From the IMG/VR virus record IMGVR_UViG_3300032224_000318, positions 1 through 29,092 of that record: DNA of 29,092 nucleotides; one strand, 5' to 3'. The notes under the pieces are model-generated. The model was not told the DNA's origin and ran no database searches. It saw only the letters and a program-made list of their open reading frames with translations. The position numbers and the translations under genes are program-made. The DNA comes from a virus. Positions 2,819 through 24,157 of this stretch are shown in pieces; the first letter of the stretch is position 1, and each line of letters opens with the position of its first letter.

Positions 2819-2967
2819 CGACGGCCTTTCCTAGCTGTCTTTTTGGACTTCCTAAACGCTGCTGCTGTGGGCGCACCTTTACTGCCCGGTGTCCTCATAC
2901 GTTCGCCAGAACCCTTGGCTATGCGTCTACGTTTAGCGTGAATATTGGCATATAAACCGGCTTTCAT
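2815..2967 (-). CDS. small basic conserved phage protein (50 aa)
   Basis: A 50-residue, strongly basic protein starting MKAGLYANIHAKRRRIAKG and ending KTARKGRR, with SGERMRTPGSKGAP in the middle. The pattern KAGLYANIHAKR...GSGE.MR.PG.KGAPTA..F resembles a small hypothetical protein that I recall from many aquatic phages; its function is unknown to me. ATG 2967 overlaps the TGA of the upstream gene as ATGA, so it is probably translated by coupling. Its stop codon shares TTAA with the stop of the convergent methyltransferase gene, and it is the last gene of the late cluster. High Lys/Arg content suggests nucleic-acid binding, or a small virion protein packaged with DNA; this is inference. Confidence 0.75.
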   Translation of the reverse strand: MKAGLYANIHAKRRRIAKGSGERMRTPGSKGAPTAAAFRKSKKTARKGRR

Positions 2968-3188
2968 CTGCACCCCCAACGACGTCTAGCTGCTTTTCCC
3001 CTAGTTCCTTTCCAACTCTTAGACCTTGCACAGAAAGACTTATGCCTTGGACCTGATTTAGTTGGAGCCTTTAGATTACTGCCGGTAGCACGGTTGTATT
3101 TCTTTCGACCTTTAGCGGTCAAGCCACCACCAGCTTTGACAGAGAGCTTCTCACCCCTGCCAACAGAAAGGTTGGTGTCTTTAGGCAT
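2964..3188 (-). CDS. small basic protein, DUF6321-like
   Basis: A 74-residue protein from ATG 3188 (MPKDTNLSVGRGEKLSVK...). The stretch GGGLTAKGRKKYNRATGSNL followed by KAP and, further on, KSFCARSKS resembles the short phage family that I recall as DUF6321; the name is from memory. The C-terminus is rich in Arg/Lys/Trp (RGKAARRRWGCR). Its start overlaps the end of the M15 peptidase gene by eight bases and its TGA overlaps the next ATG, so peptidase, this gene and the 50-residue gene form a coupled string. A longer reading from 3212 would lie inside the peptidase gene without need. Two Cys and many basic residues suggest nucleic-acid or zinc binding, unproven. Confidence 0.75.
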   Translation of the reverse strand: MPKDTNLSVGRGEKLSVKAGGGLTAKGRKKYNRATGSNLKAPTKSGPRHKSFCARSKSWKGTRGKAARRRWGCR

Positions 3189-3603
3189 AATCTCGAGTGC
3201 CTTCTTTATCAATAATTAATGCTACTTTTCTTGGCGTTTCAGCAAACGAAACGTGCGTCCAAGTATTGAATTCTCTAATGACTTGGTCGTAAGGCAAGTC
3301 AGAATCAATAATAGCTTTAGTTACTTCATCAGGCGTCATGCCCTGCACCTTAATGTCAGCAGCCTGACCTTTGCAATGCTGGCTTGTGGGTTTGCCGCCT
3401 ACATGGGCATTAACTTCCGGCGAACGGTAGGCCGAATTAACGTGAATAGGCTTGCCAAGTAAGGTTCTAACCTGTTCCAGAAATTCAGCTAGCTTTTGAA
3501 GATTTTCTGTAACTTCAGCATTAGGAGTATTGTCTAAACCAAGTCTGACAGCAGAATCAGACACGGTTAGTTCTTCAAGGGTAAAGTTTTCGGTAAGGTT
3601 CAT
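3181..3603 (-). CDS. endolysin, peptidase M15 (D-Ala-D-Ala carboxypeptidase-like)
   Basis: A 140-residue single-domain peptidase of the M15 type (Peptidase_M15_3). The zinc site is visible as SQHCKGQAADI (His76, Asp83) and WTHVSF (His117), with the likely catalytic Glu111 in VIREF. NSAYRSPEVNAHVGG (56-70) is the usual family lead-in. It should cleave peptide bonds in peptidoglycan cross-links and release progeny at lysis. No signal peptide or cell-wall-binding domain is present, so it relies on a holin, which is the next gene upstream (four-base ATGA overlap at 3600-3603). It is followed by two small basic-protein genes that overlap its 3' end. Confidence 0.9.
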   Translation of the reverse strand: MNLTENFTLEELTVSDSAVRLGLDNTPNAEVTENLQKLAEFLEQVRTLLGKPIHVNSAYRSPEVNAHVGGKPTSQHCKGQAADIKVQGMTPDEVTKAIIDSDLPYDQVIREFNTWTHVSFAETPRKVALIIDKEGTRDYA

Positions 3604-21600: not shown

Positions 21601-22101
21601 TTACATTGGAGTGGGTTGAGGTGAAGCACCGCCACCACCGGCACCGGGCATACTCATCGGAGAAGGTGCTGCTCCGGGCATTGGCGGGAGGTTCGGGACC
21701 ATAGGAGCTTGCGACATTGCACGGCCTTCTGGTGTTGCTCCACCGGCTTGCGGCAAGTTCTGTAGCATCTGAATAATCTCAGATTGCTGGAGTTCATTTG
21801 TTTTTTGCTTGCGAGGGCCAATCAAGCCTGTCAACGCACGAATAGCGTTCAATGCTTTTTGACCTTCTGGAGATTCACTACCTAGACTTGGCAAGGCTTG
21901 TTCAATCAAATCCATTGCCATTGAGATGTTGACTAGCGCACCCTCACGATTTCCCATCTTTGGTTCTGGCGTAGACATCGGTGCCGACATAGGGGCCGTT
22001 GTCGAGTCAGACATTGCTGTCGGGTTTTCAGGAGCAGACTCAGCAGGGTTACCTTGCTGCTTGCCAATCAATTCCATTAACTTATCGGGTGGTACGCTCA
22101 T
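21601..22101 (-). CDS. Met/Pro-rich head accessory protein (166 aa)
   Basis: A 166-residue protein with a short N-terminal helix (MSVPPDKLMELIGKQQGN), a Pro/Ser/Met linker, a helical core (about 55-110, ALVNISMAMDLIEQALPSLG and NELQQSEIIQMLQNLPQAGG) and a Pro/Gly/Met-rich tail (PNLPPMPGAAPSPMSMPGAG). It is the first gene after the capsid-module promoter at 22131-22158. Similar helical core plus Pro-rich tails occur in small proteins between portal and scaffold genes of other phages; none has a role known to me. A head assembly cofactor is the likely class. Confidence 0.65.
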   Translation of the reverse strand: MSVPPDKLMELIGKQQGNPAESAPENPTAMSDSTTAPMSAPMSTPEPKMGNREGALVNISMAMDLIEQALPSLGSESPEGQKALNAIRALTGLIGPRKQKTNELQQSEIIQMLQNLPQAGGATPEGRAMSQAPMVPNLPPMPGAAPSPMSMPGAGGGGASPQPTPM

Positions 22102-22130: not shown

Positions 22131-22158
22131 ATTAGACCAGACTATCAGTAAATGTCAA
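22131..22158 (-). promoter_or_regulatory. sigma70-type promoter for head genes
   Basis: On the - strand a perfect -35 TTGACA (22158-22153) is followed after 16 bases by TCTAAT (22136-22131), five of six matches to the -10 consensus. It points at the accessory, scaffold and capsid genes, with ATG 22101 about 30 bases downstream of the -10. The -35 overlaps one arm of a hairpin (22156-22185), which could make this promoter regulated. It is the best promoter match I saw in the window. Confidence 0.6.
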
Positions 22159-22185
22159 GTGGGGGAGTACATCCCCTCCCCCTTG
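22156..22185 (-). terminator. GC-rich hairpin upstream of head promoter
   Basis: CAAG..GGGGAG pairs with CTCCCC..CTTG: a 10-bp stem with a two-base bulge and an 8-base loop. On the - strand it follows the small ORF string and is followed by ACATTTACTG, not a clean T run. It may terminate portal-operon transcription weakly, or act as an mRNA stem-loop protecting the downstream transcript. It overlaps the -35 box. Confidence 0.45.
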
Positions 22186-22188
22186 GGT

Positions 22189-22208: not shown

Positions 22209-22250
22209 TTACTTGCGACCTTTACGGCCTTTACGTTTCATGCGTGCCAT
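22209..22250 (-). CDS. 13-residue basic peptide ORF
   Basis: ATG 22250 to TAA encodes MARMKRKGRKGRK, nine of thirteen residues basic. GGAG seven bases upstream of the ATG is a good ribosome binding site. It is very similar in composition and core wording (MKR-GRK) to the peptide at 22320-22361, which suggests both are kept. It is followed directly by the inverted repeat at 22189-22208. If translated it could bind DNA or RNA, or be a small virion-packaged peptide. Its shortness makes chance possible. Confidence 0.45.
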   Translation of the reverse strand: MARMKRKGRKGRK

Positions 22251-22319
22251 GTGAGTTCTCCAAATAGCAGCGGCCAACTTAAAAGAGGAAGTCAGCCATA
22301 CCTCATCCCTTGCGGGGAA

Positions 22320-22361
22320 TTAACGACGGGTCTTGCGACCACGCTTCATTTTTTTGTACAT
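22320..22361 (-). CDS. 13-residue basic peptide ORF
   Basis: ATG 22361 to TAA encodes MYKKMKRGRKTRR. AGGAG six bases upstream is an ideal ribosome binding site and starts just after the stop of the 54-residue gene (22371). Eight of thirteen residues are Lys/Arg. The 69 bases between this ORF and the next tiny one hold no gene that I can support. Same-length, same-composition neighbours argue for function; a nucleic-acid-binding peptide is the simplest guess. Confidence 0.5.
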   Translation of the reverse strand: MYKKMKRGRKTRR

Positions 22362-22370
22362 GATGTACTC

Positions 22371-22535
22371 CTATCGCTCAGTCATGCGGCCCGTCTTTCT
22401 TGCTTGACGGGGGTTAAAAGACTTAATGCCCGACACCCGGTACTGCATAGATGGCGCAGCCTCGGTCCTTTTTAGTTCGCCGGTCGATACTCTCGGCTGG
22501 TCGGATTTCGGCGTGTAATCAGGTTTGGTTGCCAT
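22371..22535 (-). CDS. small basic protein after portal (54 aa)
   Basis: A 54-residue protein, MATKPDYTPKSDQPRVSTGE... ending RQARKTGRMTER, basic, Pro-rich at the start, no membrane segment. Its ATG overlaps the portal stop (TAATG at 22533-22537), so it is probably translated by coupling with the portal. Its TAG is followed after nine bases by the first 13-codon ORF. The family is not recognised. A portal-associated or DNA-contacting small protein is a possibility. Confidence 0.65.
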   Translation of the reverse strand: MATKPDYTPKSDQPRVSTGELKRTEAAPSMQYRVSGIKSFNPRQARKTGRMTER

Positions 22536-24157
22536 TATTCACCTACCGCTTTCAAATCAGGTTTGCCTTCAGGTTTCCCTTGGGGTTGCTGCGCTTGATT
22601 CTTTTCGCGCTTTTTCAATTTATCTATTAACAATTGTTTCATTGGCGGTTCTAGCAAGTCAAGCAAAGATTCCTTGTCGATAGCTTGTGCCTTGTACAAG
22701 TTGAACGCCAACTGACGCATATCTTCCGTAAATATCGGGCTGTTGGAGTGAGCGTCCACTTTCACCACATAATCCTTGGTAAATTGTTCTGCAATAAACT
22801 TGTTGCCTTCTTCGTCTTTGAAGTGTGTGTTGTCGTAGGCTTGCATTAGCTTTAGGTACAGTGTGGCTACCTTTTCTAAACTGTCTTCTACGATTAGGGC
22901 ACGTTTCTTTGCGCGAGAACTTCCAAGACGGGCCAACTGAGAAGCATGACCAGCGGAGCGTACGCCCTGCTCACCACGACCAGACAGAACGCTTGATATT
23001 CCAGATGCTTCTGCAAACATTGCATCAATTTCATGGATTACCTCAAAGAGTGATGCTGGCATCTCCGGTGCAATGGAATCTACCTTCGCGTTTGGCATAT
23101 CGCTTGAGACAAACGAACCCGGACGGTCAAACGCAAAGGCTTTCTCATCCGTGATACCCATAAAGCCAGAGAAGACCTTTGGAGGAGAGGCTTGCTTAGA
23201 GAGCAGGTCCAAAATCTCTGTCATACGGTTGTTTCGTATAGCTTGCAGCAGGTTCAGACGAGCAACTTCACTCTGACCCCAATAATAATCAAACTGTGGG
23301 TTAGGGCAGATTTGAACAAACGGTAATTCGCCACGTAAGAATACGGACGCACCCGGACGGTCATAGATGAAGATGTCAGGGTCAGCCATTGTGACCACTT
23401 GGTAATCTTGTGTCTCATCGTTCCACACCCACAACTCATACATCTTCACGGTGTCTTCAGCAACACGCGCTTTGTAGCGGTTCGTGCCGGTCAAGTCTAA
23501 GTTGACGTTACCGTAGATAGTTGGGTTGGATTGACTCATGATGATGCGGTCAAGACCTTCCGGCAAATCTTCAGTCTTGGTGTGCATCGCTGTTTGTATA
23601 CGCTTGACGATGTCTTCCCGTTTAGGGTGACTATACAATCGATTATACAAATCGGATTTCGTAATGTAATAGGTTTGTACTATTGCCTCTTGCCTGTCGG
23701 TGTAGGTGACGTCTTCACGTAAGACGCCTACAGAACTAGGTTCCACCATGTACGGGTGGATACCGTTGTTGACTACAAGTTTGACAAAGGTCGTGTTAAA
23801 GACCAATGCCCATGTCAGAGCAGACGAGAATACTTGGTCGGCATTGGAGTTTAGCCACTCATCGTTTAGGGCGAGAGTGAGTCTAGGAATCTTGATGTGT
23901 TCTTGTTCTGGAACCGCAGCACCCACGTTGATTGAGAAGCGAGTTGTTTCAGCGGAATAGAGGAACGATGTTAGCTGGTCTACGTGCGGGAAAATCTTAT
24001 TGAACAGGGCAGGATTTTCATTGGCACCAGCACCGAACAAAAACCAAGAGCGCAGAGAAGCGTAATCCCCTTTGCGCTCTGCCAAAGATACCATGCACTT
24101 TTCGATTAAGTCGCGGTAGAAGAACTCCCGTTCTAAGTCTTTGGTTGGTATCCGCAT
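22535..24157 (-). CDS. portal protein (540 aa)
   Basis: A 540-residue protein located directly after the terminase block. The helical N-terminus (MRIPTKDLEREFFYRDLIEK), the conserved-looking SLRSWFLFGAGANENPALFN and FVQICPNPQFDYYWGQSEVA segments, and the long C-terminal helical region (SSRAKKRALIVEDSLEKVAT, then LYLKLMQAYDN) ending in a Lys/Gln/Pro-rich tail fit portal proteins, which form the 12-fold vertex ring for DNA entry and tail attachment. Length is typical of podovirus portals (500-700). The gene starts at ATG 24157 immediately after the upstream stop (24158). Its stop overlaps the small basic gene. Confidence 0.8.
   Translation of the reverse strand: MRIPTKDLEREFFYRDLIEKCMVSLAERKGDYASLRSWFLFGAGANENPALFNKIFPHVDQLTSFLYSAETTRFSINVGAAVPEQEHIKIPRLTLALNDEWLNSNADQVFSSALTWALVFNTTFVKLVVNNGIHPYMVEPSSVGVLREDVTYTDRQEAIVQTYYITKSDLYNRLYSHPKREDIVKRIQTAMHTKTEDLPEGLDRIIMSQSNPTIYGNVNLDLTGTNRYKARVAEDTVKMYELWVWNDETQDYQVVTMADPDIFIYDRPGASVFLRGELPFVQICPNPQFDYYWGQSEVARLNLLQAIRNNRMTEILDLLSKQASPPKVFSGFMGITDEKAFAFDRPGSFVSSDMPNAKVDSIAPEMPASLFEVIHEIDAMFAEASGISSVLSGRGEQGVRSAGHASQLARLGSSRAKKRALIVEDSLEKVATLYLKLMQAYDNTHFKDEEGNKFIAEQFTKDYVVKVDAHSNSPIFTEDMRQLAFNLYKAQAIDKESLLDLLEPPMKQLLIDKLKKREKNQAQQPQGKPEGKPDLKAVGE

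Follow-up and report, generated by a model that had tools for sequence, protein, structure and literature searches.

On the minus strand of the viral contig analysed here (IMG/VR record IMGVR_UViG_3300032224_000318; all 29,092 bases, hereafter the window), a terminase gene is followed by a 135-aa ORF, a 170-aa ORF, the portal protein gene (22535-24157, minus; PHROG portal, E 9.8e-11), a 54-aa ORF (22371-22535, minus) and two tiny genes, ORF1 and ORF2. A promoter-like site, a 166-aa ORF (21601-22101, minus), a 61-aa ORF, a 176-aa ORF and the major capsid protein (MCP) gene come after ORF2. The 54-aa ORF, which is usually conserved, had no match in the PHROG search, and the 166-aa ORF may encode a scaffold, judging from its position. 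ORF1 (22320-22361, minus; MYKKMKRGRKTRR) and ORF2 (22209-22250, minus; MARMKRKGRKGRK) each comprise 13 codons and a UAA stop. A sequence-only reading had described a pair of 13-codon, highly basic ORFs with GGAG 6-7 bases upstream in the gap between portal and head genes. Both were confirmed on the minus strand, with GGAG as the Shine-Dalgarno (SD) motif at 22368-22371, 6 nt before the ATG of ORF1, and at 22258-22261, 7 nt before that of ORF2, and their site between portal and head genes is the same in the window and in its relatives. The 54-aa ORF ends in a stop codon that overlaps the SD motif of ORF1. Among the tiny ORFs on the two strands of the window (29 kb), only ORF1 and ORF2 combine a K+R fraction above 0.6 with an SD motif. 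Towards the opposite end of the window, two more small basic proteins are encoded (2815-2979 and 2964-3212, both minus), and the product of the former matches phrog_16028 of unknown function (E 8.8e-25).

Three RNA elements accompany the two ORFs. The hairpin P1 (22306-22318, minus; UCCC-CGCAA-GGGA) lies one base 3' of the ORF1 stop codon. An H-type pseudoknot, PKa (22272-22304, minus), is located between P1 and the SD motif of ORF2, and is formed by stem S1, in which GAGG (22304-22301) pairs with CCUC (22288-22285), and stem P2 of 8-9 bp, in which GGCUGACUU (22297-22289) pairs with AAGUUGGCC (22280-22272). The second H-type pseudoknot, PKb (22161-22187, minus), follows ORF2 and further hairpins. 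It is weak in the window because its S1 (CCC 22187-22185 with GGG 22175-22173) has only 3 bp; its S2 pairs GGGGGAG (22182-22176) with CUCCCCC (22167-22161). Two bases after PKb starts the promoter-like site (22131-22158, minus), consisting of TTGACA (22158-22153), a spacing of 16 nt and TCTAAT (22136-22131), and recurring in relatives. It was unlisted by the consensus scan because its -10 hexamer has no A at position 2. Owing to overly strict or coarse criteria, our promoter and terminator scan had limited power for such sites; on the minus strand of the window it flagged only the PKa stem, and no U-tract terminator was seen after ORF2.

We collected relatives through the portal protein: a first scan of IMG/VR gave 579, and two more distant portals then served as further queries. 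The test set of 145 distinct loci was picked by the portal alone, with duplicates removed and at least 600 nt available after the portal gene. At least one tiny basic ORF follows the portal in 144 of these loci and two or more in 109 (one copy in 35, two in 101, three in 8), so that the start, site and basic pattern, for which the sequence-only reading had advised a check in related phages, are indeed conserved. SD motifs precede 259 of the 261 tiny basic ORFs, against 263 of 2343 (11%) other ATGs in the same regions, although the former count is biased slightly upward by our choice of the ATG with the best SD motif in ORFs containing several. On these counts, the tiny ORFs at this locus are not a product of chance. 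A degenerate, back-translated (protein-level) pattern of ORF2 searched against 2.9 million viral contigs found at least 119 new loci, and all those listed adjoin a homologue of the portal, 166-aa or capsid protein of this phage group. Taken across the sequences compared, ORF1 and ORF2 are kept by selection in nearly all members of an abundant group of uncultured freshwater phages.

The tiny ORFs are not indispensable, since one relative with 68% portal identity has neither and another with 63% has only an ORF1-like ORF. Both ORFs are absent from cultured phages with 21-29% MCP identity, and MCP and TerL searches led to Mx8/Mx9, BUCT555, ppBjS10J-1, Mwe-JY13, a TM7 phage and Hydrogenobaculum phage 1, with no such ORFs in the records examined. 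Portal relatives fall in metagenome-assembled genome bins of unrelated phyla, which makes the bins unreliable for host assignment. Two GenBank relatives, MW202753 and MW202825, contain both ORFs and annotate neither, as anticipated by the sequence-only reading that gene finders would skip them. In these two records, hypothetical proteins that are probably spurious are annotated on the opposite strand over ORF1, ORF2 and the pseudoknots (L002, 3798-4096; L003, 3829-4089), and such an opposite-strand frame also exists in the window (22251-22475, plus).

The substitution pattern is that of coding sequence. In the portal-selected set, pN/pS was 0.41 for ORF1 (39 haplotypes, 21 peptides) and 0.31 for ORF2 (44 haplotypes, 21 peptides), and variation at codon positions 1, 2 and 3 was 0.31, 0.27 and 0.57 for ORF1 and 0.15, 0.15 and 0.40 for ORF2. 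An earlier set including pattern-selected loci gave 0.39 for ORF1 and 0.23 for ORF2, the latter value being biased by the pattern selection. Synonymous codons vary freely among the relatives while the residues are kept, and the 101 distinct peptides change in length by whole codons, from 10 to 16 residues. Purifying selection on amino acids, in-frame indels and a ribosome-binding site are thus found together, as expected of protein-coding genes. The 101 peptides contain 62% K+R and no D or E, have a net charge of +5 to +9, and consist almost wholly of K, R, G and small residues. As copy number varies while charge is kept, dose and charge fit these data better than a precise regulatory fold.

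Several peptides depart from the common form. Cysteine occurs almost only at the penultimate position (18 of 20 cases, e.g. RKSCR, GRKGCK and RKMCK, in both ORF1-like and ORF2-like types), where it could allow disulfide-linked dimers. Three tiny basic ORFs follow the portal in the L056/L236 lineage (MAYKSVKRSRRGKRK, MARRKGRKAKR and MRRKARKARR), which has no PKa. In L227 and L228, ORF2 has grown to 22 residues (MARRGRKAHKGHKARKGRKARK), as if by internal repetition, and follows the ORF1-like MKRGKMRKHRKTKR. L010 carries a further basic ORF, some 57 codons long, between ORF1 and the hairpin before PKa, and the stop codon of this ORF directly precedes that hairpin.

Both pseudoknots, which had not figured in the sequence-only reading, are conserved with compensatory changes. 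S1 of PKa is 97% paired in 98 distinct cores, whereas the shuffled maximum was 85%, and it occurs in 21 combinations, including AGGG/CCCT, GGGG/CCCC, GGGT/ACCC, GAGG/CCTC, ACGG/CCGT, CCGG/CCGG, TAAG/CTTA, ATGG/CCAT and AGAG/CTCT. In a 29-sequence alignment, the covariation score of PKa was 0.372, compared with 0.124 +/- 0.016 after shuffling and at most 0.142 with slid partners. A model built on P2 alone (R1) matched the window at 22307-22269 with 42.8 bits; 17 of 18 genomes each had a single strong match, located at the PKa site in every case. By a simple rule, PKa is present in 151 of 161 distinct blocks. Six loci (L056, L236, L362, L365, L367 and L379) have tiny ORFs and no evident PKa, which indicates that PKa is not strictly needed. 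The hairpin P1 is variable but kept in many relatives, for example as UUUCC..GGAAA or UAUUCC..GGAAUA. Of 110 distinct segments downstream of ORF2, 67 contain a perfect H-type PKb, as opposed to 4.2 when their dinucleotides are shuffled. S1 and S2 of PKb occur as many pair types (S1 as TCCC/GGGA, ATTCC/GGAAT, TGTCT/AGACA, CCGC/GCGG or ACCC/GGGT), and the third loop is often A-rich in the relatives. Downstream-peptide and other Rfam pseudoknot RNAs are likewise compact H-type pseudoknots near tiny ORFs; the elements described here differ in matching nothing in Rfam 15, in which no family reached the gathering threshold in 12 sources and the window region had chance-level matches only.

That one stretch holds two conserved pseudoknots raises the question of whether the structured RNA alone matters and the ORFs are incidental. 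We consider this highly improbable and reject it on the coding signal: the ORFs lie outside the pseudoknots, their substitutions depend on codon position, their indels are in frame, their SD motifs are kept, and they survive without PKa. A fusion of ORF1 and ORF2 by readthrough or frameshifting was also rejected. The two happen to be in the same frame in the window, but the distance from the ORF1 stop to the ORF2 ATG is about 72-90 nt in relatives and is not kept modulo 3. A tmRNA-like arrangement, with a tiny ORF among pseudoknots, was considered as well; its tRNA-like part was not seen.

Distant relatives indicate which elements belong together. A portal profile searched against bacterial genome contigs identified L263 (51% portal identity), L264 (about 49%) and L266 (45%). 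L263 and L264 both keep PKa and ORF2 (MARKARKGRKARK and MARKARKASRKAKRK, respectively), and both are without ORF1 and the 54-aa ORF. In L266, an apparent PKa (GCAG/CUGU) could be made out by eye but was missed by the model, and this locus was left out of the PKa evidence. In L264, the model score of PKa is weak (E 0.03) and the S1 pairing, ACGG/CCGT, is perfect; a promoter-like TTGACA site stands in front of PKa and ORF2, and behind ORF2 we recognised by eye a GC-rich terminator-type hairpin (AAGGCAACCCC TTC GGGGGUUGCCUU) with a U-rich tail, followed by a new promoter. The 50-kb contig G016 (31% portal and 44% capsid identity) carries PKa (E 0.05; S1 ACGG/CCGT) and MARKARKAKRSHKRK directly before a gene in the scaffold position and the capsid gene, and a TTGACT-17-TACGAT site precedes the pair. 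L263, L264 and G016/L383 (31% portal identity) thus all retain the pair of PKa and ORF2 between portal and head genes, in differing transcription contexts. The movement of this pair as one unit across these contexts argues for a function of PKa on behalf of ORF2, and against a leader role of ORF2 for one given gene.

This bears on the earlier proposal that the ORFs are leader peptides for the promoter region just downstream, in which case translating ribosomes would determine how the hairpin and pseudoknot that follow are folded, and hence how the downstream genes are expressed. Strong SD sites and the position of P1 directly after a stop codon, even where the preceding ORF is not ORF1 (L065, L075 and L010), would suit such a mechanism. 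On the other hand, selection has kept residues and not codons, the genes after ORF2 differ among lineages, PKb is followed by a promoter-like site, with no evident terminator/antiterminator pair, and the terminator-type hairpin of L264 stands between ORF2 and the promoter and gene that come next, making that unit self-contained. We rejected attenuator control of the next gene on the transcript on account of this hairpin, and regard a leader function in general as quite unlikely.

Arginine-rich regulators in the manner of lambda N/boxB are another conceivable class, in which the peptides would bind PKa, PKb or hairpins in the nascent RNA and alter transcription or translation of the head operon. 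The conserved internal wobble site of the PKa stem, UG/UG (or UU/UC), could be read in this way, as could the order in G016, where promoter, PKa and ORF2 precede the head genes up to the MCP gene, resembling pL-nutL-N. The type of PKa is also associated with the N terminus of ORF2: UU-type PKa accompanies MRK peptides without Ala2 in 19 of 19 cases and UG-type PKa accompanies MAR or MAK peptides in 119 of 122. This association is suggestive but equally explained by linkage, since about 80 bp contain both elements, which travel together. Lambda N has an arginine-rich sequence encoded beside a structured RNA, as is the case here, but is a protein of about 107 aa with NusA- and polymerase-binding parts, and its boxB is a hairpin and not a pseudoknot. 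The entire product here has 13 residues, with nothing beyond the basic motif and too little length for a part that binds RNA polymerase, unlike a lambda N-type antiterminator. Antitermination by ORF1 or ORF2 is hypothetical, the L264 unit is closed by its own terminator-type hairpin, and some lineages have the peptides without PKa. We therefore hold a regulatory role of this kind to be rather doubtful.

Cationic peptides readily bind rRNA and DNA, and the products might act on host ribosomes, RNA or the nucleoid instead of being virion parts. Host expression is the target of many phage small proteins (PMC11323111). Nevertheless, the ORFs always reside within the head-gene block, from portal to scaffold or MCP, where early genes for host takeover are unexpected, and this possibility appears unlikely.

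The K/R/G composition, the sequence drift at constant charge, the presence of one to three copies and the fixed place among head genes suggest nucleic-acid binding that does not require a precise fold. We thus propose that the products of the mini-genes are probably peptides that bind nucleic acid and help to assemble or fill the phage head. Peptides of 10-17 residues and roughly +8 charge would be made together with the head-assembly genes and would bind phage DNA during packaging or inside the head, much as a gene-encoded polyamine or a small condensing peptide would. Composition and neighbourhood hint at a virion role, with the packaged phage DNA as the most likely partner; such basic peptides could instead bind RNA, ribosomes or something else. 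The J protein of phiX174, a small basic DNA-binding protein in the virion of ssDNA microviruses, offers a parallel, as it is also a tiny Arg/Lys-rich product encoded among capsid genes, and ORF1 and ORF2 are highly basic and encoded among head genes just as a J-like DNA-condensing peptide would be. J is, however, about three times longer and belongs to ssDNA microviruses, and the 13 residues of the putative virion peptides of ORF1 and ORF2 are too few to test a sequence relation.

For PKa we propose a cis-acting role in ORF2 expression. It may be a translational operator to which the basic peptide itself can bind, providing feedback, or it may stabilise the 5' end of a short mRNA, with PKb protecting the 3' side. 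Feedback through PKa is plausible because of its likeness to the operator of T4 gene 32, in which a pseudoknot nucleates autogenous translational repression by the nucleic-acid-binding gp32 (PMC535899). In both cases, a short conserved pseudoknot stands immediately 5' of the ribosome-binding site of a phage gene, whose product is a nucleic-acid binder in T4 and a putative one here. The differences are that gp32 is a large folded single-stranded DNA-binding protein and not a 13-residue peptide with putative repression, that the sequences and pairings are unrelated, and that a second pseudoknot follows the gene here.

Taking coding signal, SD motifs, position, pseudoknots and PKa-ORF2 linkage together, we assign a probability of about one half to the joint explanation that ORF1 and ORF2 are real protein-coding genes, that their products are nucleic-acid-binding peptides, and that PKa serves ORF2 as an operator or a stabiliser. 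The former five features are shown by the sequences; from them we infer translation, binding to nucleic acid, a place in the virion and regulation through PKa. A narrower version, in which a minimal self-contained gene yields a 13-residue cationic peptide that is packaged with phage DNA as a gene-encoded polyamine and adjusts its own abundance by binding the pseudoknot before its ribosome site, is considerably less probable.

The ORFs and pseudoknots resemble known kinds of elements, and in the databases and literature searched, with partial coverage, none of them was identified or described. Genes of 13 codons are far below the limits of gene finders, yet these are kept together with pseudoknots absent from Rfam. 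A tiny basic ORF with an SD site and an adjacent pseudoknot between portal and scaffold genes provides a search recipe for similar genes. If PKa is an operator, it would constitute a very small and tractable system of RNA-peptide regulation. Should the peptides belong to the virion, gene-encoded charge neutralisers missed by annotation and standard proteomics would exist in tailed phages, and if the peptides are both packaged and autoregulated, they would be among the smallest virion proteins and their genes among the smallest autoregulated ones.
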